Made by a program: the position numbers and the translations under genes
In this document: positions 42,308 through 64,000 of the stretch, piece after piece
Layout of the letters: each line of letters opens with the position of its first letter
Position numbering within the stretch: the first letter of the stretch is position 1
Assembly (NCBI GenBank): GCA_947179485.1
Contig: OX359245.1
Location: 73,147,067-73,211,066 of the forward strand
Reading direction: 5' to 3'
DNA from: Allacma fusca
Lineage: Eukaryota > Arthropoda > Collembola > Symphypleona > Sminthuridae
DNA length: 64,000 bases
The notes under the pieces: generated by a model
What the model was told of the DNA's origin: nothing
Database searches by the model: none
Seen by the model: only the letters and a program-made list of their open reading frames with translations

Positions 42308-42450
42308 TGTTACGTTGCTATCACCCGGGTATTGATGTTGTGTGGGTAATAGACAATGTAGCCTAGGTTCGGGCGTTCCATTCCCCTGAATTATGGTTTC
42401 GATGTTGGTGAAACTCATGAATAAATGGAACTATTGATTCTGTTGTGTAG

Positions 42451-42487
42451 TTCTTTTATTTAACTTTGGGCCAATTTATTGTTCCTA
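42451..42487 (-). terminator. LTR polyadenylation signals
   Basis: Two minus-strand AATAAA motifs (in ACAATAAATTGG and TTAAATAAAAGA) about 25 bases apart, in the second half of the LTR where the R region would end. Cleavage position not determinable. Confidence 0.55.
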
Positions 42488-42853
42488 GAACTGATACAAT
42501 TTACACTGAACAATTAATATTTAACACAAGATAGAATTTGAAGTCTGAATCTCTTCTTCCTGAAATTCTCCGAATTTCATGTTGCCCCGCTTGCTACCCG
42601 TGGAGATCCATCCCGGAGGGAATGGACTCTAGGTGCGGCTCCTCTTGATGTTGCTTGCTTGAAGTCGAGATTAGAACTTGTACTTAATCTACGTGTCTTA
42701 ATCTAAATCTAATCTTATCCTATTCTTAGTTTATTGTTTATTAAATAATCTGAATCATTTCCTTATAATTATGTTATGTCAGCGTTTGGCGTCACGTAGC
42801 CTCTGCTTACGACCTTCCAAACTATTTGCTGACTTAGATTATGCTTATTCTAC

Positions 42854-42863
42854 TCTATTTATA
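42854..42863 (-). promoter_or_regulatory. TATA-like box of the LTR
   Basis: TATAAATAGA on the minus strand, 14-24 bp from the LTR start. If used, U3 would be extremely short, so regulatory sequences may lie elsewhere. A plausible match only. Confidence 0.45.
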
Positions 42864-42877
42864 ATATATCCGTAACA

Positions 42878-42888
42878 TTCCTCTTCTG
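42878..42888 (-). other. polypurine tract (plus-strand primer)
   Basis: CAGAAGAGGAA on the minus strand abuts the TG of the 3' LTR, the required position for the RNase H-resistant primer of second-strand synthesis. Confidence 0.8.
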
Positions 42889-45507
42889 GGTAATTGTCGA
42901 CCTCGACAATGTCATCTGTCGAAGTTCAAGTTCATATTATTCCTAAGGTATACTACTTTTTATTTTTGTTACCGTACTTTGTAGCTTATTCTTGGTCGTA
43001 ATAGTAATGGTTGGTCTTTGTAGCATGGTCGTAATGGTATTCATGGGCATTATTATTGTTACGAATAATTGATAATAGTCAATCAGAGAATAAAAGGCAT
43101 TTCATACAATTATCATACATGTTCATCATCATATGTGTGTATACGTTTTGTAATGCTGTACAATTTTGATGGTGTTTTTGTTTGTATTTTTCTCATAAGA
43201 CAATTATCGAATATGGAAGACATTTTCTCTAGATCTTACAATCGTTACACAACATAATATAGTTGTTACTTTTACAATTTGCATAATAACAATTACATCT
43301 ACAATATTTTTATGGGCTATGTAAGATTAGAAACATCGTAGCAGAATTGAAATTTTGTGAAAGCGGCTGCAAAGGATGAGTGGAAAATCTACCTGTAGAG
43401 CAAACCGTCTTATCACATGTCAAGTGTTTCCTGATGGTATAATTTTGTGTACACATATTTTAAAAAGAATTTGTTTGTGAAAAACTATCAAGAATACTTG
43501 AAAGCAGATATGAAACATTTTCCTGTGTTTCTATTCTCATATTATTTCTAATTATCTGATACCAAATGCTAGTTGTTGCAACATTGTGACTATTTTTACT
43601 TATTGTTGCTATTAATTCAATATTTGAATGTCGCTTAAGGGTTATTGAACTTATTAGAAGGGTCAACATCTTGAAGAAAAGATCAAAGCTTGTAAAATCC
43701 CGTGAGTTTCCTTGTGAAACAATTTAATATGTTACCGACGAATCGTTGGGAAAGAAATATAGGGTTCGAAACGGAGAAAATGTAAACGCAAAATGTCGTT
43801 CACTAATACAAAAATATTTTGTGGGAAGAATTGTTCTTCGGTGGCTAGATTAGGAATTATGTCCTTCTCATGCACAACTGTTGGCAATTTCACCAAATGT
43901 GAAAACATCATGCTCCATGAAGTTCAGTAAGTAGTTCTTACTACTCCATAAGACAAAATCATATTGTACCGTGAACTATTTCCTCAACTGAGATAGGAAT
44001 GTATTTTGGCGATAATCATAAATATATATATATATACCTTGATCTGTAAAAAATCCTGTTTGATGGGACGGGTCGAATTTGTAAGCTAAATTTTCTATTT
44101 AAAATTTCTTTCAGGATTGTGTTTTCTTAATACAATTTGTCTTGGGAAACTATGGAATATAACAAAGCTAATAAGACGTTTGATCTTTTAAGATTTAAAA
44201 CTGATCCTTTTCACTGGATGTTGAAGTTAATCATTGTATATAAACGAAGTGAATTTAATGATTCCGTAAACCTTTTGTCATGTATGATGTGTATTCAAAA
44301 TTGTAAAAAGATGTCAACACTGTTTGCACTGTAATTTTCATTGCCTCACAATCCTTCTTAGGAATGACAGGATTTTTCCGCAAATTCATAAAAATTTACA
44401 GTGTTTGCGATCCTATCCATTACTGTAATTTTCTTACTTTTTATATTTTTATTTAAAGTTCCTCCTACCTATCCGTAGTATATTTTTTTGTCTATTTTTC
44501 TGGTCCCTCTAGGAGATCTAGTGCTCCTAGGATCCTTCAGATCTGGGCACATTCATGTCAACTTTCATTTAAAATGCGATACATTTTGCAAGTAAATAAT
44601 TTAGTAAAGTAGAATGTCCTACATAATAGGTGAATGTACTGTGCTACCATTTAACAGACATTCTTTTGGAAGAATCTATCCTTTGGACTTCCGTTTTACT
44701 TAATCTGTCTTTCTAGGTACCTAAAATATTAGCACGTCTAGCTAAGTAGATTTTGTTGAACTGAAGTTAAAAGGCAAACTGATCCTGATCGTAGAGAACT
44801 TGCTTATACAGGGTTCTGATTTTTGCTGGAAATTTGTTATCCCGCTCATCCCAAACGATGAGTAGGTTAGAAATATAAATTTATCCTTCTCATATGGAGT
44901 TGAATAACCTAATAAAGTCACAAGGCATTACAATCATCACTCATTGGCCGTTGAGTTAACAAGCCTCAAGGAATTATGATATTGCCTAAAATTTTGGTTA
45001 GAACTGAACCTTATCTTGAAACATTTTTCTTCTCGTTAACAAATAAATCTTTGTTTTCAAAACATAGCCTGCCTTGATAGGTTGACATTCGATGAAAATC
45101 TAATCACTGGAATCAATGTGGTGGAAAGAAAATTGGAAAGAAAATGGATAATGAATCCATCGAGACACGAAAGATATATTGATTTGAATCACATAATCTT
45201 TAGATTGTTCTCACTTTTTCTCCTATTGGGAATCTGCCTCTTTAACTAACTTGAACTTTTCGTTTGTTATTTGAACTTTGTTATTTTCATTTGCATTTTT
45301 ATATTTTTGTTATATATGAACTTGGTTTTTCTATATTTTCTTTTCCTAACCTTATTCTACTTATAACTACTTATTCTATTGTTTTATTAATACTATCTTA
45401 TAATTTATAAATATTTTTTAAATATTTTTCCATACAATTTTTATGGTTTTGTATATTTTTCTTCATTGTTTTCTTTCTTGCGTTGGTCCTTCCCGGTTGG
45501 GTTGGTG
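42889..45507 (-). other. long 3' noncoding region of the LTR element
   Basis: About 2.6 kb between the last ORF and the polypurine tract, AT-rich and without a convincing open frame on either strand. It differs in composition from the coding part of the element. It could hold regulatory sequence or the remains of lost ORFs; I see no recognisable motif. Confidence 0.5.
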
Positions 45508-46254
45508 TTATAGTTGTACAGTTGCTCTGGTTGTGTGTCGGCTGGCCTGTGGTTGTATGTTGGGCCTCACTATTCTGCATCCGACTAACTGCTCTACAGA
45601 ATTTTGGACTAATGCCGCTGTATCTGCAACATTGTCTAATTCTTTCTCGTTCGCTGTTTGTTGATCTGATTTTCTTTTCTGCATTCGAATTCGGTACAGT
45701 ATTACTGTGAATATAAATATCACTACTGTGGTAATACAACCGAATGAACTAATAATGACTACGGTGTAATCCGTGTCTGATGTTGGAACCTCATTGGATT
45801 TCCAATCAATTTCGTTGAATTGCTCCATCCAAGGTGGTCTGCTATCCCTCAGCATGGTGGGCTGTTGGTTTTGTATGAATTGTTGTTGGGGTTGTATAAA
45901 TTGTTGTTGGGGTTGTAGTAAAGCCACTTGTTGGTTTCTCTCCATGATTCTCTGGGCTTCCACGTTTGGGTCGTTCGGGTCATACTGCACTATGGCTAGT
46001 TTCCCGTCCTCTTTATGGTGTAGTATATGTACTACTGGGTCCTTTTGTGATAACACTGATGCCGTAATGGCTCCGCTTCCGACTGTTAAGGCTGGTACCA
46101 TGTAATTTGCGAACCATTTTCCGACCTGGGTTCCTAAAGCTGCTACTAATGGTCCTCCCCATGGTTCTGGACTTGGTTGTGCTATCGGCCTGGTTTCGGA
46201 AACGTCCATTGCAATTAGAGTTATTGCAAGGCTCAAAAGATTTTGGCACTTCAT
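45508..46254 (-). CDS. small type I membrane protein of the LTR element, envelope-like position
   Basis: From ATG 46254 this is a 248-residue protein; the frame is open upstream but lacks another Met. Residues 1-16 (KCQNLLSLAITLIAM) form a signal peptide. Next come a Gly/Ala-rich hydrophobic stretch (about 45-70), a Gln-rich repeat with FIQPQQQ, one strong membrane span near 170-192 (VVIISSFGCITTVVIFIFTV) and a basic, then acidic cytoplasmic tail. As the last ORF before the 3' LTR it occupies the place of env in retrovirus-like elements, but it is far shorter than known gypsy env proteins. I see no furin site or fusion peptide in it. It could be a viroporin-like or accessory membrane protein. 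It may be expressed from a spliced RNA. Confidence 0.6.
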   Translation of the reverse strand: MKCQNLLSLAITLIAMDVSETRPIAQPSPEPWGGPLVAALGTQVGKWFANYMVPALTVGSGAITASVLSQKDPVVHILHHKEDGKLAIVQYDPNDPNVEAQRIMERNQQVALLQPQQQFIQPQQQFIQNQQPTMLRDSRPPWMEQFNEIDWKSNEVPTSDTDYTVVIISSFGCITTVVIFIFTVILYRIRMQKRKSDQQTANEKELDNVADTAALVQNSVEQLVGCRIVRPNIQPQASRHTTRATVQL

Positions 46255-46827
46255 TTTCACTGTGTGAAAAAACCTTTTGTGTAACTGTTCTTTATCCCTG
46301 AGTAGTCTCAAGTATTTGAGTTCTCTGTGGGTGTTGAGGTTATAATGAGTACTCTGTTTCAAGAGTCTCGTATTTATATCAATTAATTGTTTGTGTTTTC
46401 ATCTTCCGATTGCGAAAGAGAATTCTTTTCCTAATTCCGATGTTGTAATCCGTATGTCCCACTTCCGGTGACATAATCTTTTATTAGTATTTCTATCCTA
46501 TGAACTCTATGAAATGTGTTAGTAAGTAAAATATTTTTGTTTTGTTTTCTATTTTGTATTTATTTTTATTTGTTTTTCTTTTCTAACTATTCTGTTATGG
46601 TGATCATTATGTAACATCCGCCGTAATCCCGATGGTTGATGCTGCATAAGATCTTAAAAATGTTTTATCGTAGATCCTTTCTTGCGAAATAATCTACACT
46701 TTACATTCCCTTCGGGAATTTCTTCCGTCATCAGGTAATTTTGGCTTCTGCTTTTCCCCGCTAGTTCTCTTTCTCTTTATACCATGACCTGGATGGTGTG
46801 GTCAGGTTATTATCCTCTGTGACGTTT
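46255..46827 (-). other. spacer between accessory ORFs of the LTR element
   Basis: About 570 bp between two ORFs of the element. The downstream ORF's frame is open to 46362 without an ATG. No motif stands out; a splice acceptor for the small membrane protein would be expected in this area. Confidence 0.35.
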
Positions 46828-49614
46828 TTAATCGTCTTCCTCGGACGGCCCTCTGAGGGTGCCTGTCTCCTCCTCTCCTTCCGCTAGTGTTCGGAATGAT
46901 ATGACTGCGAATCTATTCTCGGATAAAATCTCCGGGTCCCATCTTGCACGTGATGATCTTTCCCATAACTGATCCATTAGCCTTCTGTGCTCTACAGGGT
47001 TTGTTATGGAAAGGTAGCTGGTTCTCTGTTGCGTCACTGGGTCTCTCCTGAGTTCTTCCTGTAAAAAATCATGTCCGAGGTCTCGGAAAACTATTTCAAT
47101 TCCTGTTCGACCTCTGAGGGTTCGTATGAGATTTATTAGATCAGGTTCATCTGGTCTTCCATCAATGACAACTGATCGCCATTGTGCTGTTTGGAATCGG
47201 TCTATCGCGCTTGGTACCATGTGTATTGGTGTTATTCCTGGTCGTCTCTCATTTCTTGGAGATAATTGATATGGTTTGTAACTTGGTCCGTCTCCACGGT
47301 TACTGATTTGCTCCCGAATCCTGTGAAAGTGTTCTCTTTGCCAGATTCGTATCGTGACAAGTTCGTTCAGGTCTCTGAAAGAACCTGTTTTCCGGGGTTG
47401 TCTTAGAGTGGCTACTCCTCCTTTTAGTTTTCTAGCGTATAGGGTAGTTGGCTTTTGGCCTTCTCCCGCTAGTTTCATTGCGAATATCCAGTCTTCCCAT
47501 TGTCCTAGTTCTTCCTCTATATCGTCAATTGGATTGGGTTGACTTCCGCTGCTCTGGTTTATTGCTCCGAATTGTCGCCACTCCTGAATTGCCGCGTCCT
47601 GATGATAAAGATTTATGATCCTTTCGGTCATACTCGCAAATTCTTGAAAACTTAGCATGTGTATTGGTATACTCGCTAGTTGCTGTAAAGCTTTCTCTCC
47701 ACGTCCGGTGATGGCGTCTCCTCTGAGTAGGAAACTATTTATCCATATTTCCTGCTCTCGCCAGGTTGGTTGAATTCCTATGTCGAACCACATCTGAGTA
47801 ATCAATCTGCGTAGCTCGGTTCCCGTGAGCCCTTGCATTACTCCCAGATGTTCCCGACATGTTAGATATGTTGGTACTTGGTGATTATCAATACCTCTCT
47901 GACCATTGAACAATGTTGTCCAAAGTCTCGGTATCATTTCCCCTGGTGAGATGTTCATGTCTCCTGCCATCGTTTCCAGACGGGTGTTTTCCATTGGTAC
48001 GTTTCTTCGACTTTGCCCGTATAGGATGAGCAGGTCTCGCTCCCTTGGGTCTAGTCTGCGATAATCTGTGGGATGGTCCATTGCATCATACAGCAATGCC
48101 CTTCTTTCCCGGATTAACTCTCCGTGATTGTTGTAGTCTATTCCTGCCTGGTGTTCGGCGTATTCTATATTTGATTCATGAGCGTCTGTTCTGGGCTCGC
48201 TTAAGGTGCTAAGCGCCCTTTGTAACTGCTCGAGTCGTAGTTGAGGTGGTTGAGTAGGTTGTTGGTGGATGTTAAGTCTCTCGATAAATGTCTTCCTGTA
48301 CATTCTGTTGAGCCATCTCACTAAATTTTGTTCTGGACTGTTGGTTGAACGATGTGAGATATTATACGTTGGAAATCTCTCTGGGTCGATGGTGGATTTC
48401 TGATAACAATGAGGACACATGGTGGATCTTTCCCTGGTGTCCATGTTGTTGCTGAAGTAGTTGGTCCTCCTGGAGTACTGTGCTTCTATCTGGCTATGGC
48501 GTTCGTCTCCAGATATATCTTCCAGTACTTGATCCAGAAATCTAGGCGGTGAGTGGTCCAATGGGTCATTGGCCCTTTCCACCATATTTCTCACTTGAAG
48601 TCGTACCGGATCCAGTTGGCTGTATAACTGTGTCTCGTTCGGGTTGGTAAAGATGACTATTTCCGCATCTTCTTCTTCCCAACTTGGTGCTACCATCCAT
48701 CCACGGACTCCTATGTAAAATGATACGTGAGCTAAATCAACGAATCTTACGTCAGGTGAGTCGGGTTGTGTCAGTGGATCTTCCGGTGCTGCAGTTGGTG
48801 GGTTTTCCTGGCGTTCTTCCTTAAACTCCACCTTTCGTTGACGTTGTCTAGCTCGTCTGGACTTCAGTCTGTCTTCTATGGGTTGTATAGGTTGTCCCGC
48901 TATCGTGGATGGTCCTGGTGATGGTGACCTTGATCCTCGTCTGTCCCTAGTATCGTTGAATATTACAGTCCTAATGGGTGAGTATACTCTAACCCTGGGT
49001 CGTTCAATTTCTGGCTCTGGACCTCGTTGTCGTCCTCTATACCGGAATGTACAGTTTGGAGCATTGTCTCTTCCGTACAATCTGTCCAACTCTGGTCTGC
49101 TCCTTCGGATGTATTGTACAGGTATATCCTTTTGTCTTTGCCAAGCTTCATGTGCTGCTAACTTGGTCTTTGGTCTTACGGGTGGCTTGTGGCCGTGTTT
49201 GAGTGGGCAGTATTCACATCTGGTCTTCACCCACTTGCTGTTTGTCTCGTTGTCTGATGAACTATCTACCTGGTGTTCTGATGGTGGCTTTTCCTCGTCG
49301 TCCAAGACTTCTTCCTTAATTACTTTTGATGATGTCCCGGCTCCTTCTTCTCGAGCCTCTACAGCTTGTTCCGTTGGCACAGCCGGTTCCTCTTCTGAGG
49401 TCAAAACCGGTCCTTCTGCTCCCTCTGTCCTTCGTGGATGACTTCTTCCCGGGTCTCCTTTCCGTATAGGGTCTTGGTTCCCTCCGAAGTCCATTCCAAC
49501 GGACGTGCCAATATAGATTACCATTCGGAGGGTAAATCGTACAAGCTGCTGAATAATTCCTATTGGTCTTCCTGACGATGAGTGAGCCTCCTCTTCCTCA
49601 ATCCGTGCCAGCAT
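46828..49614 (-). CDS. accessory ORF of the LTR element, 928 residues, function unknown
   Basis: Starts at ATG 49614. The same frame is open back to a single TAA at 49780-49782, which is the stop of the preceding 1204-codon ORF. Residues 1-140 are acidic and disordered. Two possible metal-binding clusters occur: CEYCPLKHGH (about 133) and CPHCYQKS (about 395). The middle is rich in Arg/Glu, and a long alpha-helical-looking region follows from about 430 to 900 with conserved-looking aromatics (WREQEIWINSFLL, EWRQFGAINQ, RFQTAQWRSVV). I recognise no known family. The helical region followed by small Cys clusters could suggest a capsid-like or RNA-binding role, but this is speculation. The ORF is intact over 2.8 kb, which suggests selection. 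Confidence 0.6.
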   Translation of the reverse strand: MLARIEEEEAHSSSGRPIGIIQQLVRFTLRMVIYIGTSVGMDFGGNQDPIRKGDPGRSHPRRTEGAEGPVLTSEEEPAVPTEQAVEAREEGAGTSSKVIKEEVLDDEEKPPSEHQVDSSSDNETNSKWVKTRCEYCPLKHGHKPPVRPKTKLAAHEAWQRQKDIPVQYIRRSRPELDRLYGRDNAPNCTFRYRGRQRGPEPEIERPRVRVYSPIRTVIFNDTRDRRGSRSPSPGPSTIAGQPIQPIEDRLKSRRARQRQRKVEFKEERQENPPTAAPEDPLTQPDSPDVRFVDLAHVSFYIGVRGWMVAPSWEEEDAEIVIFTNPNETQLYSQLDPVRLQVRNMVERANDPLDHSPPRFLDQVLEDISGDERHSQIEAQYSRRTNYFSNNMDTRERSTMCPHCYQKSTIDPERFPTYNISHRSTNSPEQNLVRWLNRMYRKTFIERLNIHQQPTQPPQLRLEQLQRALSTLSEPRTDAHESNIEYAEHQAGIDYNNHGELIRERRALLYDAMDHPTDYRRLDPRERDLLILYGQSRRNVPMENTRLETMAGDMNISPGEMIPRLWTTLFNGQRGIDNHQVPTYLTCREHLGVMQGLTGTELRRLITQMWFDIGIQPTWREQEIWINSFLLRGDAITGRGEKALQQLASIPIHMLSFQEFASMTERIINLYHQDAAIQEWRQFGAINQSSGSQPNPIDDIEEELGQWEDWIFAMKLAGEGQKPTTLYARKLKGGVATLRQPRKTGSFRDLNELVTIRIWQREHFHRIREQISNRGDGPSYKPYQLSPRNERRPGITPIHMVPSAIDRFQTAQWRSVVIDGRPDEPDLINLIRTLRGRTGIEIVFRDLGHDFLQEELRRDPVTQQRTSYLSITNPVEHRRLMDQLWERSSRARWDPEILSENRFAVISFRTLAEGEEETGTLRGPSEEDD

Positions 49615-49779
49615 AAGCTGTAGCTGTTGTTTTAAGAATTGTCTGCTATAACTGACGGGTGACCATGCGTTGGTCGGTCCTACGAATGCCTCTCGTCTCT
49701 GCCGTTGTCTGGCTGCTCGTTCCGACGTTCGCTGGAAGAGTGGGTGGGTTTGTGAGACGTTGGCGTGTGCCGTTGTCTC

Positions 49780-53394: not shown

Positions 53395-53587
53395 CTGGCT
53401 GAAGATAGAATACCTTACAGTAATCTGTTTTAATGATTGTGTACGTACCTACGTATCGGACTCTCCTTCGACCTTGTCGTATAAGATAACTAATGAGATT
53501 TATACGGTCTCCAATCTTGAGATCAATCTCGCTTTGACCAAAACTAACACAGTTTGGTATTGTTGTTAAGTATCTGGTGGTGCTCAT
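53261..53587 (-). CDS. small basic SH3-like ORF of the LTR element
   Basis: 108 residues from ATG 53587, whose ATGA overlaps the stop of the preceding coiled-coil ORF. IDLKIGDRINLISYLI and VRYVGTYTIIKTDYCKVFY are reminiscent of the small beta-barrel at the C-terminus of retroelement integrases. The tail is very Arg-rich (RRPTRRRQGRRR). A nucleic-acid-binding role is a reasonable inference. Its end overlaps the start of the 1204-codon ORF by 134 bases in another frame. Confidence 0.5.
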   Translation of the reverse strand: MSTTRYLTTIPNCVSFGQSEIDLKIGDRINLISYLIRQGRRRVRYVGTYTIIKTDYCKVFYLQPDVREQRVTCIRVSNQRDSTPRRPTRRRQGRRRSTTLLDPIRESN

Positions 53588-53847
53588 TCGCTTTCAGACT
53601 GATCCAAATCTTCTCGTCCTCTTTCGGGTACGAGTTGGGTATCGTCTACTTTCTCCGGTTTCTTCAGCGCTTTCTCCTTGAGATGTTTCGCCTGCTTCTG
53701 TAACTCCCGAATTTCCTCCTGAACTTGTTGAAGTTCCTGTTGGATTTGTACTCGTCGGGTTCTGAGGGTCGCTGAATGTTTCTCGGTGATCTGACGTATT
53801 TGTTCTAATTCTTTCAGGCCTTCTGGGATTGTCTTTCGTGAAGACAT
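53584..53847 (-). CDS. coiled-coil mini-ORF 5 of the LTR element
   Basis: 87 residues from ATG 53847, nearly all predicted coiled coil (QQELQQVQEEIRELQKQAKH) with an acidic tail. Its TGA overlaps the ATG of the next ORF as ATGA, the arrangement used for termination-reinitiation. It is in the same frame as the four preceding mini-ORFs and is overlapped by the 439-codon frame. Confidence 0.55.
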   Translation of the reverse strand: MSSRKTIPEGLKELEQIRQITEKHSATLRTRRVQIQQELQQVQEEIRELQKQAKHLKEKALKKPEKVDDTQLVPERGREDLDQSESE

Positions 53848-54913: not shown

Positions 54914-54987
54914 ATTTTTATTTGGACTAAATTCCTCTGTTGTTTCAATCCCCTTATCTCGTCCCTGATTTCCTCTAGAGTGTTCAT
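54775..54987 (-). CDS. coiled-coil mini-ORF 1 of the LTR element
   Basis: 70 residues from ATG 54987. The ATG overlaps the pol stop as ATGA. Coiled coil (NTLEEIRDEIRGLKQQRN, then IKQRIAALELLIQE) with a polar tail. The coupling with pol argues that it is a real downstream cistron of the genomic RNA. Confidence 0.55.
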   Translation of the reverse strand: MNTLEEIRDEIRGLKQQRNLVQIKIWKYAAQEEYIKQRIAALELLIQETKPQTSSFCPQVEKSQDEVQPE

Positions 54988-57900
54988 TTACTTTCGAGCG
55001 AGTGAAATATGGGTAATTTTAAATCTAAAAATTCCCGATTATCTGAATAATTTTCTAACGAAAATTTTCCTACTTGTGTACTTGACTGCTTAGTAGTACC
55101 TTTTCCTCCCTGAGTGTTATCTTTGTGTTGATGTAGTCCCTGGTTTGGTTTCCCTCCTTCACTTGGGGTGATTTGAGAGTGTGAGTAATTTTTGTCACAA
55201 AATTCTCCTCTCTGTTGTACTGGCTGAGTTTTGTCACTTGCACTGTCTGAGTAATTTTCAGATGAAAATTCTCTAGTTATTTCTTCGGTTTGAGCAGGTT
55301 GAACTTTAAAAGTCACCTTCTTGCTCGTAGTTGAACTGTTATCTGAACTGGTCGAATTCTTAAGAATTGACCGTGGCTGACTCACTGTAACTTTTCCACA
55401 CTTGTTCCAATTTCGTTTTGTCACCAATTCCACTATATCGGAATCTAAATCATAACTATACTCGTCCTCAATGTGTTCTCGCTGCAGGCACTTCTTAAGC
55501 CTTTCCACATGGACTTTCTGTCTCTTTTTAGAATTCCTAAGGTCTTGAATGATATAATTGTCTTTGGCTAAAACTTCTATGACTACAAAGGGTCCTTTGT
55601 AAGGGTGAAGAAAGCGTTCGCTCTTTCCAACTATCCTGGTCGGTGTAAAGACTCGCACTGTGTCTCCGATGTTGAATTTAACGAACCTTCTTTTCCTATC
55701 ATACCAATCCTTACTGTAGTCCTGACGTTCCCTTATCTTAGCAATAGCTTTTTCTATTCTAGTAGTGGCTTCCTCAGCACTCATAAAATTTGTGTCGACG
55801 CTGCTTAAACACAGTTGTAAGTTAAAATCATATATAGGTTGTCGCCTAAACATCATAAAATAAGGAGTTTCTTTGGTCACGTCATGGTGACTGCAATTGT
55901 TAGCATTTATTAGAAACGGTAAACAACTGCACCATAGTGCTTGCTCTTTTTGAGTATAATGACTCAGCATAGTGCTTATAGTCTGGACCATTCTTTCTAT
56001 TTGTCCAACACTATTATGTCTTAGTGCTGTAGATGTAGAGTGGTTCATGCCTAATCTGCGAAGTAATGCTTGAGTGATTTCCGCTCTGAATTCGGATCCT
56101 CCGTCACTCAGCAAGTTTTTAAACAGTCCGTATTTTAAAACCACTTTGTGAAGCAAAAACTCTGCTATCCTGTCAGCAGTTTTATCTGGAATTGCTTCTG
56201 CGATCACGAACTTTGAAACATAATCCTGTGCGATTATAATGTACTTATTCCCTTTTATGCTAATTTGCATGGGTCCAATGAGATCAATACATAATGCATC
56301 TCCTACATTTTCTATCCTGATTGGATGAAGCAGTCCTGCTGGCTTCATTCTCATGGATTTAGCTGCTTGGCAACTTTCACATGACATGACATATTTTGCT
56401 ACTGAGACGTTCATTTTTCTCCAAAAATAATTTTTGTTGAGTCTATGAAGAGTTTTCTGGAATCCTAAATGTCCTCCGCATAGGATCCCATCATGAGCTT
56501 TTGATAGTAGGAAATTTCTAAGTACTCGGGGTACGTATAGCTTACGTCCATCTTTATGTACTATAGTAAGAATCCCTTCTCCATCAATTTCATATCGGCT
56601 ATACTTTTCTTTGTCCTTCCAATTTAACGTATGCCGCATCTTTATTTTGTCCATGATGAATAAACAATCTGGATCGTCCCTTTGCATCTCCTGCATGTTA
56701 TGTTCCTCTAACATAGTAACTTGCTCTTCATCTTCAAGTATCCTACACACAGGCTTGTGTGTGGAAAAAGTATCTTTGCTCCCTTCGCACCCCTTTAGTG
56801 CGTGAGCTCCTGGAACAAATTTTATTGCTCTATTTAATGACATGTCCTCAGTTTTCTGAGCGTCTTTATTTCTTTGGTCTTCATCCTGTGAAAGACATAG
56901 TGAATGTGACGTCCTTTTACTTGTCACAACACCCTGCCCTTTCAAAGGTTGAATCTTCCATGATCTTCCATCGGTGAATTTAATTTCACCTTCCTGGATA
57001 TTTTTCCTCAGCTCTTCTACTGTGGTCGCCAGTAGAGAGTAATTATTTTCATTAACTGGATTCTCTGTGGATATGTACGTATGCGACGGCGGAGGGTTTT
57101 TGTTTTCCTCCGACTCGCATGCTGCAGATCTTCGTTGGATATTTTTCATCCATTCATCCACATCTCTGGAAATTTTCATCGCCTTGATCCGCTGTGGGGT
57201 ATCAAGATCCGGATTGTTAACATATCCTGGACTTTCTGCATCAGGAACTTGATCAGTCTTCCTGGCAGATTGTGCAGTGTATGTCTTCAATTGCGAAATA
57301 ACTTCCTGTTTGAGCTTCCATTCATCTCCTTTTGCTGACGTTGGGTTCCTCCAAGTCTCTTCAAATGCAAACCATTTCTCCTCATCTGTGGGATCGTGTC
57401 CGGATGGAATGTGATTTTCCACACTGAACTTTTCCTGTTTCAGTGTCGGTTGGTCGCATTCCTTTTGGACGTTCCTATCCTCATCCGTGAGTACCAATTT
57501 CTTGGCCTCTTTAGGACTGGCGGGATGGGTGGGCGGGAAAGTTGAGGACTTCTTTTGTGTAGTCTCAGCTGCCTGGCTCACCAGATCCGCTGTTTCCTGA
57601 TTCTTCAAAGTTTGGTCATGGACTTCCGTCTCGGAGTCTACAATCATGGCTGGTGGTAGATGTACAGCTTTTGTTTCAGCCTCACCTGCCCCATCCATTG
57701 TTGTGAATTCCATTGTACTCCGTGTCATCTGCCCTAGGGATTTTGGTGAATCAATGTCAACCTTCCCATTGGTTGGACTTTGTGACGTTATTGCTGTCGT
57801 TGAGTTTGGAGTAGGAGACCAATCAGTCCCCATTCCAATGTCAGTGATAGTATTTCTGTCAAAATCTTCATTTTCATTTTGAACTTGAGCTTTCCTTGGC

Positions 57901-60791
57901 GATAGAAATTCTTTCATATCTAATTCATTTATTGTTGCATTGTGGCGCTCTATATCTTGTATTAGTTTGAGATTTTTCTCGTAGATATACTCATTGGTGT
58001 ATTTCCAGGTATTTTCATCCTCTAGTGGGTCATCCTCCCGAAATTCGTGGATTGTAATGATGTCATCTACGGATAATTTCCATTCTTTGAGCGCTGAGTA
58101 GCTGTGTGTTACTTCATTTACACGGCTCTTTACGCTCATTGTATGGTTCTCCCAATCCGTTTCCTCCAAATTCGGTTGAGGTACTAAAATTTCCACTTGT
58201 GATTTGACTTTACGCCTGGGTTGACCTTTCAATCTTCCTGACCATGGATTTTGTCGCTGTGGGATTATGGCTTCCTCTTCGTCTGAGGATTGACTTTCGT
58301 CATCCGTCCAATATTTTCCCTTATAGCTTTCCCTGGTCGTAAGGCTGGCTGCACACTCTAGTGGTGGCATTATTATGTTCCCCTGAGGGATTTGTTTTTG
58401 CTCTTCCAAAGCAATTTTGTGTTCCTTGACCGGGTCTGGTTCGAATTCGATCACTCGGTCCTCTGTATCCTCTAAATCTTCCTTTGTATAGGGTAATGGA
58501 GCTCTGGATAGAAAGTCTGCATCCAAGTGTAATGCTCCTTTCTTGTATGTGACTTGAAAGTCAAATTCTTGTAGTTTATTTACAAACTTACTTATTCGGT
58601 GGTTTGGATCTTTTTGTAATCGTAGGTAGCATAATGCTAAGTGATCTGATCTAATTAAAAATTTTCTCAAATAAAGATATTGTCTGAATTTGCGAACTGC
58701 ATATACGACTGCTGCTAGTTCTAATTCTGTGACTGAGTAATTCTTTTCTGATTGAATTAGTGTCCTTGAAGCATAAGCTATTGGATGTTCTCCTCCATCA
58801 TCTTGAAGTACACAGCATCCTAGTCCTGAAATTGATGCATCTGTATGCAGTATGCAATCCAACTCTGGGTTGAAATGAGCTAGAACTGGCTGTGTCATTA
58901 ATTTGGTTTTGAGAATGTTGAAGGCAATTGTTGCATCTGCACTCCATTGGAAGCATCTTATGCGTTTTTGTCCTTCAGATTTCCCTTTACTTCCAATCCA
59001 TGATTGTGAGATGGGACTAGCAATTTTTGCGAAGTCCTTAATGTATTTTCTGTAGAAACTGCATATTCCAAAAAATCTTCTAGCTTCTGTTTCGGATTTT
59101 GGTATTGGCACATGTCTAATAGCGTCCACCTTTGCAGGATCTGGACTGGTGCCTTCCCTGGATACTTTAAATCCTAAAACAATTACTTCAAAATATCCGA
59201 ATTTGCATTTCTTTGGCTTGAACTTAAAGTTTTTGTTGCTGGCTCTTAACATCAATTCTTCGAGAGATGCTAATTTGTCCAAAAGATGAATTCCATAAGA
59301 GATTACATCATCTAAATATACCATGGCTCCCCTAAATTTGAGTGAACCTAGCATTTGATCTGCTGCTCGCTGAAAAGCTGACGGTGCAATCTTGACTCCC
59401 ATAGGTAGTCGTTTGAATGCATATAATCCATCCTGTGTAATGAAAGAGGTTATAACTTGGTCATCCTCATGTATTAATAATTGAAAGAACCCTGACTCCA
59501 TGTCAAGAGTGTCGAAAATTGCAGATTTTCCAAATTGCATAAGTATGTCATCTATTCTGGCTAAAGGATAAACCTGATCTGTGATGGTCTTGTTTAACGC
59601 TCGATAATCCACAACTGATCTAAATGTTCCGTCTTTCTTTTTGATGAGGAATAGTGGACTGCTGTAAGGTCCGTTTACTTCCTTAATGATGTCCGCATCT
59701 AACATCTTTTGTACTTCCTCACGTACTTTTTGTCGCTCCATAGGTGAGCAAGGGAAAGGTTTTGCCTGAACGGGTGGATTATTTCCCGTATGTATCCGAA
59801 TGGGATCAATCCACGCTGGTTCTTTCAAATCTCCCTTGTTAAATGCGAAACATTCTGGATATCTTGTCAGCAATGCTCGGTATTTAGCTCTTCCTTCTTC
59901 GTCGAGCTCTTCGTTGACGTCGAAACAATCGAGCTGTTCTTGTGTGAGCCTTTTGTGAGCATCACGTAATTGATTTCGCTTGATTTTGATGAGATCAAAA
60001 TTTTCCTCAGCATGACCTATAGCTGTACGTCCATACATTGTCTGTGGACATGGAGCTGGATTAAATACATATGCGAAAGGTTCTTCATTTGGTACTACAC
60101 CTGCGGCTACTAAAAGTCGCTTGCTGGTGTAAAGCTTTTCTGATGGTTGTAAATAAAAATCCTTTTTGATGCGTTTTGGAATGTGTATGGGCACTTTCAT
60201 GTGTCCATAGGCTGGTATTGTGACTGCTTTTCGAGTCCTGCACATCATGTTCTTCGGTCCTTTAATTTCATGAAATGAAAATATTGACCTGACAAATTCT
60301 ATGTCGGCCTTTTTCTCCCCGACATAGAGATGAGTGTCTCTAGTCATTGGAACTGTTTGAAATCGATCACTCCGTATTTCATTATTCTTGTAATCCAACG
60401 TTATTCCATAACGTGATAAAAGATCTTCACCTATAATCATTCGTGGTTCTAGTGTTTCCATCACTAGACCTTTGAACAAAAGTTTTTCACCTTCAATCAT
60501 CATTGTGAATTTGGTGAGACAAATTGGTTTTACCAATTCTGCATTTGCCACTGCTACTCGCAGAGCGCTTGGAACTTCTTTTATTTCCGCGCATCTTGGT
60601 ACTAAGTTTCTTTGGATACAGGATCTTGTTGCTCCTGAATCTAGTAAAGCTGGTATCATCATACTGCATATTTGTACTTGTAAAGTGGACTTGTTGCCGT
60701 TTGATAAACGACATGGGTTGAGATCAATAATTTCTAATTCTTCGTCGTCTTTTGACTGACTTTCTACTCTAGTTGCTATAATTGCATTCAT
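54984..60791 (-). CDS. pol: Pol polyprotein: protease, reverse transcriptase, RNase H, integrase
   Basis: 1935 codons from the first ATG (60791), but the frame is open to 60857 and is most likely entered by -1 frameshift from gag at 60839-60845. Domains in order: aspartic protease with LLDSGATRSCI (about 50-59); RT with SPLFLIKKKDGTFRSVVDYR and catalytic YLDD near 489; RNase H with LHTDASISGLG near 645; a 600-residue low-complexity acidic linker; integrase zinc finger (HDGILCGGH, CESCQAAKS near 1475); catalytic core D in IDLIGP near 1502, D in LLSDGGSEF near 1560, E in QIERM near 1594; and a GPY/F-like module (HPYKGPFVVIEV). The domain order is that of Ty3/gypsy elements. Typical pol proteins are much shorter; the extra length is the linker and a ~200-residue tail. 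All catalytic residues seen are present. Confidence 0.93.
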   Translation of the reverse strand: MNAIIATRVESQSKDDEELEIIDLNPCRLSNGNKSTLQVQICSMMIPALLDSGATRSCIQRNLVPRCAEIKEVPSALRVAVANAELVKPICLTKFTMMIEGEKLLFKGLVMETLEPRMIIGEDLLSRYGITLDYKNNEIRSDRFQTVPMTRDTHLYVGEKKADIEFVRSIFSFHEIKGPKNMMCRTRKAVTIPAYGHMKVPIHIPKRIKKDFYLQPSEKLYTSKRLLVAAGVVPNEEPFAYVFNPAPCPQTMYGRTAIGHAEENFDLIKIKRNQLRDAHKRLTQEQLDCFDVNEELDEEGRAKYRALLTRYPECFAFNKGDLKEPAWIDPIRIHTGNNPPVQAKPFPCSPMERQKVREEVQKMLDADIIKEVNGPYSSPLFLIKKKDGTFRSVVDYRALNKTITDQVYPLARIDDILMQFGKSAIFDTLDMESGFFQLLIHEDDQVITSFITQDGLYAFKRLPMGVKIAPSAFQRAADQMLGSLKFRGAMVYLDDVISYGIHLLDKLASLEELMLRASNKNFKFKPKKCKFGYFEVIVLGFKVSREGTSPDPAKVDAIRHVPIPKSETEARRFFGICSFYRKYIKDFAKIASPISQSWIGSKGKSEGQKRIRCFQWSADATIAFNILKTKLMTQPVLAHFNPELDCILHTDASISGLGCCVLQDDGGEHPIAYASRTLIQSEKNYSVTELELAAVVYAVRKFRQYLYLRKFLIRSDHLALCYLRLQKDPNHRISKFVNKLQEFDFQVTYKKGALHLDADFLSRAPLPYTKEDLEDTEDRVIEFEPDPVKEHKIALEEQKQIPQGNIIMPPLECAASLTTRESYKGKYWTDDESQSSDEEEAIIPQRQNPWSGRLKGQPRRKVKSQVEILVPQPNLEETDWENHTMSVKSRVNEVTHSYSALKEWKLSVDDIITIHEFREDDPLEDENTWKYTNEYIYEKNLKLIQDIERHNATINELDMKEFLSPRKAQVQNENEDFDRNTITDIGMGTDWSPTPNSTTAITSQSPTNGKVDIDSPKSLGQMTRSTMEFTTMDGAGEAETKAVHLPPAMIVDSETEVHDQTLKNQETADLVSQAAETTQKKSSTFPPTHPASPKEAKKLVLTDEDRNVQKECDQPTLKQEKFSVENHIPSGHDPTDEEKWFAFEETWRNPTSAKGDEWKLKQEVISQLKTYTAQSARKTDQVPDAESPGYVNNPDLDTPQRIKAMKISRDVDEWMKNIQRRSAACESEENKNPPPSHTYISTENPVNENNYSLLATTVEELRKNIQEGEIKFTDGRSWKIQPLKGQGVVTSKRTSHSLCLSQDEDQRNKDAQKTEDMSLNRAIKFVPGAHALKGCEGSKDTFSTHKPVCRILEDEEQVTMLEEHNMQEMQRDDPDCLFIMDKIKMRHTLNWKDKEKYSRYEIDGEGILTIVHKDGRKLYVPRVLRNFLLSKAHDGILCGGHLGFQKTLHRLNKNYFWRKMNVSVAKYVMSCESCQAAKSMRMKPAGLLHPIRIENVGDALCIDLIGPMQISIKGNKYIIIAQDYVSKFVIAEAIPDKTADRIAEFLLHKVVLKYGLFKNLLSDGGSEFRAEITQALLRRLGMNHSTSTALRHNSVGQIERMVQTISTMLSHYTQKEQALWCSCLPFLINANNCSHHDVTKETPYFMMFRRQPIYDFNLQLCLSSVDTNFMSAEEATTRIEKAIAKIRERQDYSKDWYDRKRRFVKFNIGDTVRVFTPTRIVGKSERFLHPYKGPFVVIEVLAKDNYIIQDLRNSKKRQKVHVERLKKCLQREHIEDEYSYDLDSDIVELVTKRNWNKCGKVTVSQPRSILKNSTSSDNSSTTSKKVTFKVQPAQTEEITREFSSENYSDSASDKTQPVQQRGEFCDKNYSHSQITPSEGGKPNQGLHQHKDNTQGGKGTTKQSSTQVGKFSLENYSDNREFLDLKLPIFHSLESK

Positions 60792-60811
60792 TCTTTCTTG
60801 GATATCTTCAA

Positions 60812-63800
60812 TTACTGGGGGTGCGTCCCCCTCTGTGAGTTTCCCGACGGATATGGGCTAGACTGTCTTTTGTGTGGGCAATTTCTCCTCAGGTGGCCCA
60901 TCTCTCCACATCCGAAACACTTTAGGTCGGTTTGAGTGGATTCTAGCGCCAATTGTCCCGGTATCGGTTGTGACTGCTCCTGGCGGTCTGGTTGATTTTT
61001 CCAGGAGTTGTTTCTGTCGTTGCTTTGGCTGTTCCGGTCCCTGGAGTTAGTTCTACTCCTGTTGTTGTTGTTGTTGTACTGTTGGGGTCGTTGCCCTCCT
61101 TGGTTATTGTTTGGCTGATAACCCTGGTTGTGGTAACCTTGTGGGTTGGCCTGAATTTGTTGCATGCCAGGGTTGGCGTACCCTGCATTTTGTCCTTGAC
61201 CGTATCCTTGAGATGGTCCATACCCTTGGGTGGGTGCATAACCTTGAAACGGTGCATAACCCTGTTGTGGTGGGTATCCTTGATTCGGGTTAAACCCTTG
61301 AGGTGGCATGAAGCCTTGAGTTTGATTAAATCCTTGGTTGTTATAGCCGTTGTAGGATTGGTTGTATCCTTGGTTCATCTGTTGATCATTCCATTGACGA
61401 TTTCCCTGGTTGTTAGGGTTGTTGTTATAGTATTGTCGGTTCGGACTTTGTCTAGATCCGAAATTTTGGTTCCTCTGAAGGTAACCTTGGTTGTTGGAGT
61501 TGTTGCCATCATTTCTATATTGAGGCCTGCTCCTATCTTGATTATTGTAGAATCTCTCAGGTGTTGGAGATCTACCTCGGTTCCCATAATTCCTTCGGTC
61601 ATCATAACCTTGATTGTTACGTCCCCTGTCTGGGTAGTTATTATTATTGCTGTAACCTGGACTGGAATTTCGTGAGTTATTGAAGTTCCCCTGACCTGGA
61701 CTTCGTCCTCGTTGGTCATTAGGTTTATTTTCAGGTCTCCGATAGTCCTGTTGTTCTCTTATTGCCGCTACTTTGACGACGGTTGTTTCCGTTGGAACTG
61801 GTTTCATTCCGGAGGTCAATTTCTCCAACATTTCTTGGACTTTGGCAAATCTTGTCTCAATAGATTCCGCGCCGTCCGTCTTTCGGTCTTCATCATACTG
61901 CTTGATTCCCTCTATGAAATCTGCTACAGTTCCTGCTGTCCATCCTCGGCAGAAAACTATGTACTCGGATGTTAAACCTGCGCGTAAGAGTCTGATTTTC
62001 TCCAGTTCGGGCATAAATCTGTCGACTCTATTGATTAGTGCTAATTTCGCATCTATGTATGCGCATGGATCTTCATCTGTATTCATCTTTCGCTTTTCCA
62101 TTAGTGTACGTATCATTTGGTCGGTGATACTGTACCTTATTAGAAATTCCTCCCTGAATTCGTCCAAGTTAATGGTGTCGTAAGGTAGTTCCTCATGTAG
62201 TCTTCGTTCGGCAATCCAATTTCTGATCCAATCCCTGACGGGTGGGTCAAAGATGATCTGTACGTATTGCATCCTGGTTATGATGGTATCTCCTCCGAAC
62301 CTGTTGGTCTGGAGTTCGGCTGTTGCGAAGGCTGTCTCTGGGTCATCTACACCCAGTTTGAATTCTACTTTGGGAAACATGAGGGCGGTCATGTCGTCGT
62401 CCAGATGTCTCCTTGGAATTATTCGTACCTGTTCTTGGTCTGCAACTTCCTCAATACGTATCCCCTGATTAGGGTTAATTGGTACGTATGGGTTGATGAT
62501 GTTAACGTTGACCTGGTTGAAGATGTTATTTCTGTTTACAATCTGTCTATTCCTCCAGTTGTCGAAGGCCTCGAAGTCGTGAGGGTTACTTGAGTTGCTA
62601 CTACTGGAGCTGGATGATGAACTACTTCCTCCGGAACTTCCGGGGTCACTCCTTGCTCTCTGTCTGCCTCCGATGTGTCTACCTCCTCTTGAGCCTCCTC
62701 GACCTGGATTTGACCTTGATTGAGATGGTCGCTGGTTGTGGGAATTGTTGTTATTAGCCCCTCTCGACTGGTTTCCTCTCCCTGATCCACTTGGTCCTGG
62801 GCCTGGTGGTCTGGGTTGGTTATTTCCAATTTGACGGCGTGCTCGTAAGGGTTTGCGTCTCTTTCTGACTTGAGTGAGTACAACTTGAGTTTCCGGACTA
62901 AGGTCTCGAAGTCGGATTCTTGGGAAGAAGTGAGTTTCTCCGGTATTGTCCACAAATCGGACTTCCTCTTGTATTTCTTCGTCTCTTTCAATTGCTCTGA
63001 ACGCTGCGTCGTAGGCGTCGTCTATAGAGATTCTTACAGTAAATTGACCTGGTACTTCTGGAATAATGAAGTCCTCTTCGTCAACTCCAATAAAAATGTG
63101 GTCTGTCTCTTCACTAGACTGTGCACTGTTATGCTGACCACTCTCTCGTCTCGGAGTGTCTCTCTGTACAACCTGCTCTTCTTCTTCCTCGCTGGATGTG
63201 TCACTCAAGATTTCCACGTTAGGATCGTGAATTAATCTGTTCAATGCCTCCTGGTGGTCGTGTTCGTTCTCGATGTTTTCCAAGAAGCCTGGTGGTACCC
63301 TTTGTCTGCGAACGCCGTTCGGTAGACTGATGTGTCGATGGTAAAGTCTGAAGTTGGGTGCGATGTAGCTGGAGATCTGCCCTGGATCTAAGGATCTTCG
63401 GGTGATTATATTCCAGAAGGTAAATATCGGGTGTTCACTCAGAACAATTTCTTCGTGTTCAGCTCTTGTAGCTGCAAACGCTTCAAAGTTTGAGTCTCTT
63501 GCTGGTCGGAACCTTCGTTGTATGATACCGTCCCTCCTGTCATAGTAAATCAGGCGTCTTACTTGACCTGTCCAAGTTGCTTCGTTTTCTACCCCCTGAT
63601 TTCTGAATCTGTCTTGTTTTCGGGCGATCTTAGAGTATTGTCTTACTGTTATCCTGCTTGGTACTAACTCGTCTTCGGTTGCTTCGTTCTCGCTGGTGTA
63701 TACTCTGCCACTTGGTCCTGTCCATATATTTACTCCGTATTGTAAGTCATCAAGCCAATTGACTGTACCTTGACTTGTGGTTGGAGTTGTTGTTACTCGA

Positions 63801-64000
63801 GATGGTCCTGCTACTGCTGAATTTGGTCTGACGGGGACAGCTGGAGCTGTCGGTGTCGTTGGTCGGTTTGCTGACCTGGTTATAAACCTTCCAGTTGGTC
63901 TAACTGGTACTGCAAAAGTCGTTGCTGCGCGTGTCGTAGATGCAGGTGTTGCTGTCCGTGACCTTAAGGTGTCACCTTGGACGTATGACTCGTTGCTTCT
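60812..64000 (-). CDS. gag: Gag polyprotein with CCHC zinc knuckle (5' end outside window)
   Basis: The frame is open from the right edge of the window to TAA at 60814-60812, at least 1062 codons. The N-terminal part in view is Pro/Thr/Arg-rich. It is followed by a region with RVYTSENEATEDELVPS, a folded, capsid-like helical region around 62400-61800 (WIRNWIAERRLHEELPYDTI), and then about 300 residues of Asn/Gln/Gly/Tyr-rich repeats (NQGYN, PTQGYGPSQGY). Near the C-terminus is a CCHC knuckle, CFGCGEMGHLRRNC, which binds the packaged RNA in Gag proteins. Gag makes the particle shell of the retroelement. It is unusually long. There is no ATG between the right edge and 63283, so the true start lies outside the window. 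Confidence 0.88.
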   Translation of the reverse strand, partial: RSNESYVQGDTLRSRTATPASTTRAATTFAVPVRPTGRFITRSANRPTTPTAPAVPVRPNSAVAGPSRVTTTPTTSQGTVNWLDDLQYGVNIWTGPSGRVYTSENEATEDELVPSRITVRQYSKIARKQDRFRNQGVENEATWTGQVRRLIYYDRRDGIIQRRFRPARDSNFEAFAATRAEHEEIVLSEHPIFTFWNIITRRSLDPGQISSYIAPNFRLYHRHISLPNGVRRQRVPPGFLENIENEHDHQEALNRLIHDPNVEILSDTSSEEEEEQVVQRDTPRRESGQHNSAQSSEETDHIFIGVDEEDFIIPEVPGQFTVRISIDDAYDAAFRAIERDEEIQEEVRFVDNTGETHFFPRIRLRDLSPETQVVLTQVRKRRKPLRARRQIGNNQPRPPGPGPSGSGRGNQSRGANNNNSHNQRPSQSRSNPGRGGSRGGRHIGGRQRARSDPGSSGGSSSSSSSSSSNSSNPHDFEAFDNWRNRQIVNRNNIFNQVNVNIINPYVPINPNQGIRIEEVADQEQVRIIPRRHLDDDMTALMFPKVEFKLGVDDPETAFATAELQTNRFGGDTIITRMQYVQIIFDPPVRDWIRNWIAERRLHEELPYDTINLDEFREEFLIRYSITDQMIRTLMEKRKMNTDEDPCAYIDAKLALINRVDRFMPELEKIRLLRAGLTSEYIVFCRGWTAGTVADFIEGIKQYDEDRKTDGAESIETRFAKVQEMLEKLTSGMKPVPTETTVVKVAAIREQQDYRRPENKPNDQRGRSPGQGNFNNSRNSSPGYSNNNNYPDRGRNNQGYDDRRNYGNRGRSPTPERFYNNQDRSRPQYRNDGNNSNNQGYLQRNQNFGSRQSPNRQYYNNNPNNQGNRQWNDQQMNQGYNQSYNGYNNQGFNQTQGFMPPQGFNPNQGYPPQQGYAPFQGYAPTQGYGPSQGYGQGQNAGYANPGMQQIQANPQGYHNQGYQPNNNQGGQRPQQYNNNNNRSRTNSRDRNSQSNDRNNSWKNQPDRQEQSQPIPGQLALESTQTDLKCFGCGEMGHLRRNCPHKRQSSPYPSGNSQRGTHPQ
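60817..60845 (-). promoter_or_regulatory. -1 programmed ribosomal frameshift signal between gag and pol
   Basis: On the minus strand a slippery heptamer GGGAAAC (60845-60839), in the gag phase G GGA AAC, is followed by a 7-base spacer and a GC-rich hairpin with a 5-bp stem GGGGG/CCCCC and a loop of ACGCA (60831-60817). The pol frame is open from 60857, just upstream of the heptamer, and the gag stop is at 60814-60812. The phase is correct for a shift of one base back into pol. Confidence 0.85.

Follow-up and report, generated by a model that had tools for sequence, protein, structure and literature searches.

A probable new lineage of giant Ty3/gypsy elements with putative overlapping accessory genes in the springtail Allacma fusca

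The window analysed here is a stretch of 64,000 nucleotides on chromosome 1 of the springtail Allacma fusca (C1:73147067-73211066), and it contains the greater part of a long terminal repeat (LTR) retroelement lying on the minus strand. By locating the second LTR, the element can be delimited to 28,743 bp (window-equivalent positions 42308-71050), of which the 5' 7 kb lie beyond the window end. Taken as a whole, the data are best explained by a new, recently amplified giant lineage of Ty3/gypsy elements (Metaviridae) that carries accessory genes, and we regard this explanation as likely. We are considerably more confident of the architecture and the lineage as described below. The accessory genes themselves are best read, by analogy, as reminiscent of those of complex retroviruses. 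The internal region between the LTRs measures 27.6 kb and is mostly coding; the open reading frames (ORFs) described here cover approximately 74% of the element, and all of them lie on the minus strand.

Element ends, copies and sister families

The 3' LTR (42308..42877, 570 bp, TG...CA) was delimited by LTR search and alignment, and the boundary at 42308 given in the original prediction, a note made from the window sequence alone, is exact. That note had described an LTR element larger than 21 kb. The element is indeed larger: since the 5' LTR was found at C1:73217547-73218116, outside the window, the full length is 28,743 bp. The two LTRs show 0 differences over 570 positions, and the 5' LTR is the sole other match at 100% among the 40 matches scored of 278 candidates. 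Flank comparison revealed a target-site duplication, ATAT, at 42304..42307, with its counterpart after the 5' LTR, outside the window, and a polypurine tract, AGAAGAGGAA (42878..42890, minus strand), stands immediately upstream of the 3' LTR. The element is inserted into a LINE (long interspersed nuclear element) reverse transcriptase fragment (41709..42307, minus strand; RVT_1 E 2.9e-17 for the ORF 41709-42317), which is thereby interrupted. According to their positions, the 40 scored LTR matches form 18 pairs and 4 singles. The pairs span 23,824 to 39,059 bp, and 12 of the 18 fall within 28.6-28.9 kb; LTR identity within a pair refers to the window copy only.

In searches of the 392.7-Mb genome, five gene queries (gag-N, mini2, SH3-like, ORF3-N and membrane) each found more than 100 close copies, here called family A; the co-location of genes in this family is based on LTR spans and aligned pieces. 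A second copy of the same family lies at C1:73233285-73255117, starting approximately 15 kb past the 5' LTR of the window copy, and is supported by membrane, SH3-like, mini2, ORF3 and gag matches. Three copies within 0.5 Mb (C1:79.6-80.1 Mb) form an intermediate subfamily with 75-84% identity. Two more divergent families are present in the same genome and are possibly larger than the rows listed here. Family B (approximately 40-56% protein identity) keeps gag, mini2, mini5, the SH3-like ORF, ORF3 and the membrane ORF in order, and 24 of its loci, matched by hand, are present in the SH3-like, ORF3-N and membrane lists in the same order. An example on C8 has gag at 9283880, mini2 at 9296924, the SH3-like ORF at 9298369, ORF3 at 9298709 and the membrane ORF at 9306128. 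In this family, mini2, the SH3-like ORF, the membrane ORF and a 220-residue piece of ORF3 are kept over most or all of the query; of the 249-residue gag-N query, only the first 140 or so residues are kept, at 48-54%, and the gag frames of open copies are near 2261 residues long. Family C (approximately 40%) keeps ORF3.

The copies bear directly on the idea that the ORFs after pol reached an ordinary gypsy element by a private insertion or through the nesting of several elements. The size of the element speaks for nesting, as it is well beyond the usual internal range of Metaviridae, 3 kb to more than 15 kb (ICTV, PMC7879559), and so do the larger spans of some copies, 33,985 and 39,059 bp among the 18 pairs. 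The original prediction had named copies lacking the post-pol ORFs as the finding that would overturn it, and the opposite was seen: with the ORF3a query, 38 of 38 scored copies are full length, at 95-100% identity (560 candidates, window copy included). Together with the narrow range of most LTR spans and the conservation of gene order in family B at approximately 50% identity, this excludes a private or nested insertion for practical purposes, and we give that explanation almost no weight.

The window copy itself is defective, despite its identical LTRs. The description of its ORFs as mostly intact did not survive: there are two stops in gag, a frameshift in the tail of pol and a stop in ORF3, and each gene is open in most of the other copies. 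Because these lesions coexist with identical LTRs, they arose very recently, or else proteins of other copies mobilised this one.

Gag, pol and the small frames overlapping the pol tail

The C-terminal half of gag, with a CCHC zinc knuckle identified by Pfam, occupies 60812..64000 of the window, and the full ORF starts at the equivalent of 67360. In the window copy, frames of 629 and 239 residues and the frame entering the window are one frame of 2,183 codons from the first Met, interrupted by two in-frame stops, both located beyond the window end. Among the gag-N matches listed, 109 rows reach at least 94% identity; by hand count, 75 of these contain a frame of 2193-2251 residues, most often 2202, and in one of the 75 a stop was read through. 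Gag and pol share 46 bases, their frames being offset as for a -1 shift, and a -1 frameshift out of gag would yield pol. The pol gene (53594..60857) encodes the enzymes of a retroelement: protease (RVP, residues 56-154), reverse transcriptase (RT; RVT_1, 405-565), RNase H (638-765) and, after a spacer, integrase (H2C2, 1442-1501; rve, 1520-1611, marginally below the cut-off with 32.5 against 32.6 bits), followed by a C-terminal extension of approximately 470 codons. Of the 24 copies scored, 21 have a pol frame of 2419-2420 residues, one internal stop being read through in each of three of them; the window copy, in which a one-base frameshift near the tail causes an early end, and one other copy end at 1957, and the remaining one ends at 2163. 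Selection on gag and pol was assessed in eight copies, every change being counted. Silent and replacing changes number 143 and 44 in the gag part (ratio 0.095), 27 and 0 in the protease, 85 and 9 in RT-RNase H (ratio 0.035) and 32 and 7 in the integrase. The spacer between RNase H and integrase, approximately 640 residues (window 56555-58460 or so), is without a Pfam match and is under weaker selection (60 silent, 57 replacing, ratio 0.29).

The original prediction placed five coiled-coil mini-ORFs after pol. Their reading as independent genes behind pol has to be rejected, because in other copies the pol frame runs beneath them: the mini-ORFs overlap the pol extension in another frame. They are mini-ORF1 (54775..54987, 70 residues), mini-ORF2 (54529..54771, 80 residues), mini-ORF3 (54259..54429, 56 residues), mini-ORF4 (53980..54225, 81 residues) and mini-ORF5 (53584..53847, 87 residues), all taken from the ORF list, with the coiled-coil label assigned by eye. 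In close succession there follows a basic ORF of 108 residues, called SH3-like (53261..53587); its ATG shares bases with the stop of mini-ORF5 (ATGA), and the stop of the pol tail is two codons ahead of it.

Selection in this tract was counted in 28 copies (30 loci minus L035 and L037, left out for poor alignment of the outer flank), a change being counted if present in at least two copies; the initial 39 bases of mini-ORF1 lie outside the count. Inside the pooled mini-ORFs, the mini frame has 53 silent and 36 replacing changes (ratio 0.22). In the gaps between them the pattern is reversed, the mini frame showing 8 silent and 23 replacing changes (ratio 0.94) and the pol frame 18 silent and 15 replacing (ratio 0.27). 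The Fisher p values of this reversal are 7e-5 for the pol frame and 0.002 for the mini frame, to be taken as guides, as sites in related copies are non-independent. The ATG starts of mini-ORFs 2 to 5, the four whose start was covered, are kept in 28 of 28 copies, and each of these ORFs is intact in 26-27 of 28. Purifying selection thus acts on each frame in part of the tract.

Family B, compared for mini2 and mini5, extends this result. Among the best 150 of 155 matches of mini2, at least 29 rows at 40-47% identity belong to family B, and 24 of the 29 are without a stop, the frame being mostly 87 residues long. At one family-B locus, L050 (440 bases), one frame could be aligned to the pol tail with a score of 240, against 79 for the best of 300 shuffles, and another frame of the same bases aligned to mini-ORF5 with a score of 143, against 68 for shuffled sequence. 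This is the strongest single result for overlapping genes, with both frames conserved in the sister family at the one readable place. When the mini-ORFs were compared with each other, only pairs 2-3 and 3-5 of the ten stood out (4 of 500 shuffles each), and these pairs may be mutual duplicates.

The SH3-like ORF is likewise under purifying selection (11 silent, 5 replacing, ratio 0.15, 28 copies). It overlaps the start of ORF3, and in the overlap 1 of 134 sites is variable in at least two copies, or 11 when changes in single copies are included. Of the best 150 of 168 matches, 114 are at 89% identity or more (hand count) and 32 at 47-59%, several of them partial. In family B, a stop, usually one TGA, lies inside the aligned stretch of most rows; consequently, the family-B ORF may end earlier than that of family A, or may be read differently. 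The basic ORF noted in the original prediction stands as a conserved gene candidate, and its SH3-like label does not fare as well. The ORF resembles the integrase C-terminal domain in pattern and may be a duplicate of it, although shuffled sequences did equally well in 143 of 1000 cases.

Several observations weigh against the reading of the element as part of a new giant Ty3/gypsy lineage with accessory genes. The SH3-like label is weak, because the structure model reaches a predicted local distance difference test score (pLDDT) of 54, its structural comparison gave no match at E <= 0.001, and 3 of 200 shuffles beat the ORF against an integrase C-domain profile of 82 sequences. The Pfam scan of the gag pieces found no capsid domain beside the zinc knuckle. 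Residues 1801-1940 of pol, just ahead of the mini-ORFs, are weakly constrained (15 silent, 21 replacing, ratio 0.44, eight copies). A standard tRNA primer site starts with TGG, and the sequence after the 5' LTR starts with TGATGTTTCTGCC instead; a self-priming match of 9-12 bases, sought at the 5' LTR, was not found either. The RNAs and proteins of the element are predicted from its DNA sequence. Inside the mini-ORFs, moreover, the pol frame has 15 silent and 74 replacing changes (ratio 1.68) and the third frame 21 and 63 (ratio 0.91), and in stop avoidance the pol frame does no better than the third. The case for constraint on pol exactly under the mini-ORFs is therefore drawn from family B and from the gaps between the mini-ORFs.

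A further point of this kind comes from shuffling the codons of the pol tail: 29 of 2000 trials reach the mini-ORF length in another frame, so that open mini frames alone are only weakly surprising, and the mini-ORFs might be a non-genic by-product of pol-tail codon composition. A by-product would not be expected to show mostly silent changes inside the mini-ORFs and the reverse in the gaps, nor the retention of ATG starts and intact frames across the 28 copies, nor the preservation of mini2 and mini5 in family B. On this evidence, we consider a compositional origin highly improbable and retain the mini-ORFs as putative accessory genes.

ORF3, the membrane protein and the envelope question

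Downstream of the small frames, two ORFs of 1204 and 928 codons had been predicted. As separate genes they are rejected: they belong to one frame of approximately 2,206 codons, ORF3 (46828..53394), split in the window copy by a single in-frame stop that is missing from 29 of 30 aligned copies. With the ORF3-N query (220 residues), the best 150 of 207 matches include at least 116 family-A rows at 77-100% identity, 78 of which have a frame of 2190-2345 residues (a stop was read through in two of the 78); at least 26 family-B rows at 50-56%, five of them with a frame in this range; at least 6 family-C rows at 40-42%, five with 2200 residues; and two further rows that represent one split family-A locus. 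ORF3a carries 275 silent and 98 replacing changes in 28 copies (ratio 0.12), and the two unused frames of the same stretch give ratios of 2.7 and 2.2; the aligned part of the second half of ORF3 has 122 and 76 (ratio 0.21).

The last gene, at 45508..46254, encodes the predicted membrane protein of 248 residues, and here the original prediction was borne out. The protein consists of a hydrophobic N-terminus (signal-peptide-like by eye), an ectodomain, one strong transmembrane segment and a cytoplasmic-type tail. Its ORF is under purifying selection (63 silent, 39 replacing, ratio 0.20, seven copies), and at least 28 rows at 50-54% among the best 150 of 214 matches come from family B. An acceptor-like T-run...(C/T)AG stands immediately ahead of its ATG in 7 of 7 copies. 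From this ORF to the polypurine tract extends a 3' region of approximately 2.6 kb (42891..45507), where the sole minus-strand frame of at least 90 residues (45398-45748) overlaps the end of the membrane ORF.

Together, ORF3 and the membrane protein might make up a true envelope with a fusion protein that has escaped recognition, in which case the lineage would be an infectious virus or would have been one until recently. Their position is that of env; ORF3 has hydrophobic segments near residue 787 (signal-like by eye) and residue 899, as well as N-glycosylation sequons and RX(K/R)R motifs; the 3' membrane protein is type-I-like with an acceptor-like site; and the insertion is young, with identical LTRs. 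On the other hand, ORF3a and ORF3b gave no hit at E <= 0.001 among 7,986 and 7,994 scored candidates from a database of 5.8 billion proteins, and Pfam detected no fusion domain in ORF3 or in the membrane protein. In addition, cysteines are few, the membrane protein contains no sequon, an AlphaFold2 model of ORF3 residues 772-1204, made without an alignment, has a pLDDT of 37 and is unusable, and the copies may have spread in the germ line alone. An infectious, enveloped lineage is accordingly a doubtful possibility, which we place well below the giant retroelement with accessory genes.

A different origin of the 3' half would be the capture of host genes as passengers, and LTR elements are able to capture ORFs downstream of pol (PMC6431247, in the part of the text available). 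Against capture, no annotated homologue was found by Pfam or, for ORF3, by protein search among the candidates scored. The listed ORF3-N and membrane matches (best 150 each) are assignable to families A, B and C or to fragments, and ORF3 is under strong purifying selection. Capture of passenger genes is thus very unlikely, and genes belonging to the element remain the better account. For the mini-ORFs, the SH3-like ORF and the membrane protein, the comparisons covered Pfam, in part PHROGs, and the genome itself; every Pfam match of the mini-ORFs was below the cut-off, and nothing matched in the phage families of PHROGs. Scans of IMG/VR with ORF3a and pol found no related locus.

Relation to known elements and predicted roles

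The element shows the protease-RT-RNase H-integrase order, an RT more like that of Ty3 than those of retroviruses or caulimoviruses, TG...CA LTRs, a 4-bp duplication and a polypurine tract, as expected of Metaviridae. In the PDB, RT-RNase H matches Ty3 Gag-Pol best (E 2e-102), followed by an "Enzymatic polyprotein" (2e-44), the next being at 3e-30. In the database of 5.8 billion proteins, where 3,879 candidates were scored, gypsy-type proteins from the pseudoscorpion Cordylochernes and from metagenomes make up most of the best RT matches, with identities of 32-45% (120 listed of 663). A tree of 120 rows, all from the RT's own database matches, places the window RT as a long branch beside P0028, P0034 and P0048 (support 94, quick method). 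In three metagenomic gypsy-type polyproteins (P0038, P0070, P0096), the protease is preceded by a Monjiviricetes fusion glycoprotein domain (PF24664), which places env ahead of pol in one ORF, a layout called the first case in Burro (PMC6431247, same part).

With the errantiviruses (the Drosophila gypsy group), the springtail element shares the succession of gag, pol and a third ORF downstream. Some errantiviruses also have a 4-bp target duplication of the ATAT type. The springtail element is far larger, and its lack of an errantivirus-type env is a Pfam result for the fusion domain in ORF3 and the membrane protein, where a diverged one is possible. In complex retroviruses (lentiviruses), small overlapping regulatory ORFs lie between pol and a large 3' gene; the likeness is in layout only, and no relationship of the extra genes was detected at the sequence level. 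Ogre elements of legumes carry an additional ORF ahead of gag, after the 5' LTR. The springtail leader in this place measures 3,120 nt (window-equivalent 67361-70480, beyond the window) and, unlike in Ogre, contains in the window copy no forward frame longer than 62 residues lying wholly inside it. Ogre is similarly a giant Ty3/gypsy element, up to 25 kb, whose bulk is largely due to LTRs of 1.9-6.5 kb (PMC6431247, same part), as opposed to the 570 bp found here.

The available part of PMC6431247 gives a traditional size limit of approximately 10 kb for LTR elements, in terms of transcription, RT processivity and packaging, and says that Burro of planarians, with internal regions up to 25 kb, has broken size records. 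Burro is similar in scale, being a Ty3/gypsy element of more than 25 kb in all (total above 30 kb), with thousands of extra codons and many copies. Its MATH, BIR, ankyrin, BCL2-like and env domains are placed between gag and pol in one polyprotein (PMC6431247, same part), whereas the extra genes of the springtail element come after pol as separate and overlapping ORFs, and Pfam found none of these domains in the gag pieces, pol, the pol tail or ORF3. Inside its LTRs, the springtail element is larger than any LTR element named in the parts of the literature compared here. Cer1 of C. elegans, also Ty3/gypsy, has a small extra protein, CERV, with a predicted leucine zipper and partly in another frame, and splice acceptors ahead of a downstream ATG (PMC10309623, available part). 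CERV is one protein from five exons (same source); the springtail tract comprises five mini-ORFs, the SH3-like ORF and the 2,200-codon ORF3, and the likeness is in layout. In bdelloid rotifers, the LTR elements Vesta, Juno and TelKA carry additional ORFs downstream, of which some are env-like and others are not; these are single added ORF3s, several of them identifiable enzymes or env (PMC5408684, available part), as against a multi-gene overlapping tract here. Troyka has CG...CG termini and 3-bp duplications (PMC12440569, available part), in contrast to TG...CA and ATAT.

The original prediction had called the element an undescribed lineage with a complex, virus-like 3' half, and this is supported. 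In open-licence papers no description of the lineage was found, and ORF3 had no homologue among the candidates scored; a Repbase entry or a preprint is possible. The architecture deserves the term virus-like, because small overlapping genes lie between pol and a large ORF and are followed by a single-pass membrane protein. For infectivity the term lacks support, no known envelope domain having been detected by Pfam.

Judging from the enzymes, replication would follow the usual Ty3/gypsy pattern, with packaging and reverse transcription of a full-length RNA. The small ORFs might be reached via splicing or termination-reinitiation, and the membrane protein could be made from a spliced RNA. Our first guess for the coiled-coil-like and basic proteins is that they act as RNA-export or assembly adaptors, comparable to CERV for Cer1 or Rev for HIV, because a 28-kb RNA with splice sites would meet the export problem of Cer1, where CERV is required for nuclear export of the unspliced RNA (PMC10309623, available part). 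The second guess assigns ORF3 and the membrane protein to particle egress or membrane association, as a membrane or envelope module. These particular functions are offered tentatively, with less than even confidence. Also speculative is the view of the element as an endogenised, reverse-transcribing springtail virus of approximately 28 kb with independently evolved retrovirus-like complexity, which we consider rather unlikely; such a virus would have several regulatory genes that overlap and, in ORF3 and the membrane protein, an envelope module not yet recognised as such.

Since five gene queries each find more than 100 close copies, the lineage must copy an RNA of approximately 28 kb. It also provides a natural case of overlapping genes evolving in Ty3/gypsy elements, with three divergent families in one genome and selection measurable for each frame. 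If the small proteins act like CERV or Rev, complex-retrovirus-like regulation would have had an independent origin.

Elsewhere in the window, a family of proteins of approximately 290 residues is duplicated locally (1220-2080, 20440-21240, 35905-36774 and 38106-39029, minus strand); the last of these, the one member scanned, has no Pfam match above the cut-off. An ORF of 729 residues at 30155-32344 (minus strand) resembles, by eye, an ionotropic-receptor-type membrane protein. Finally, 26567-26800 and 27356-28133 contain 39-bp tandem repeats (TATTGGTCA...) and CCCGTCCCC-rich repeats of approximately 41 and 80 bp.

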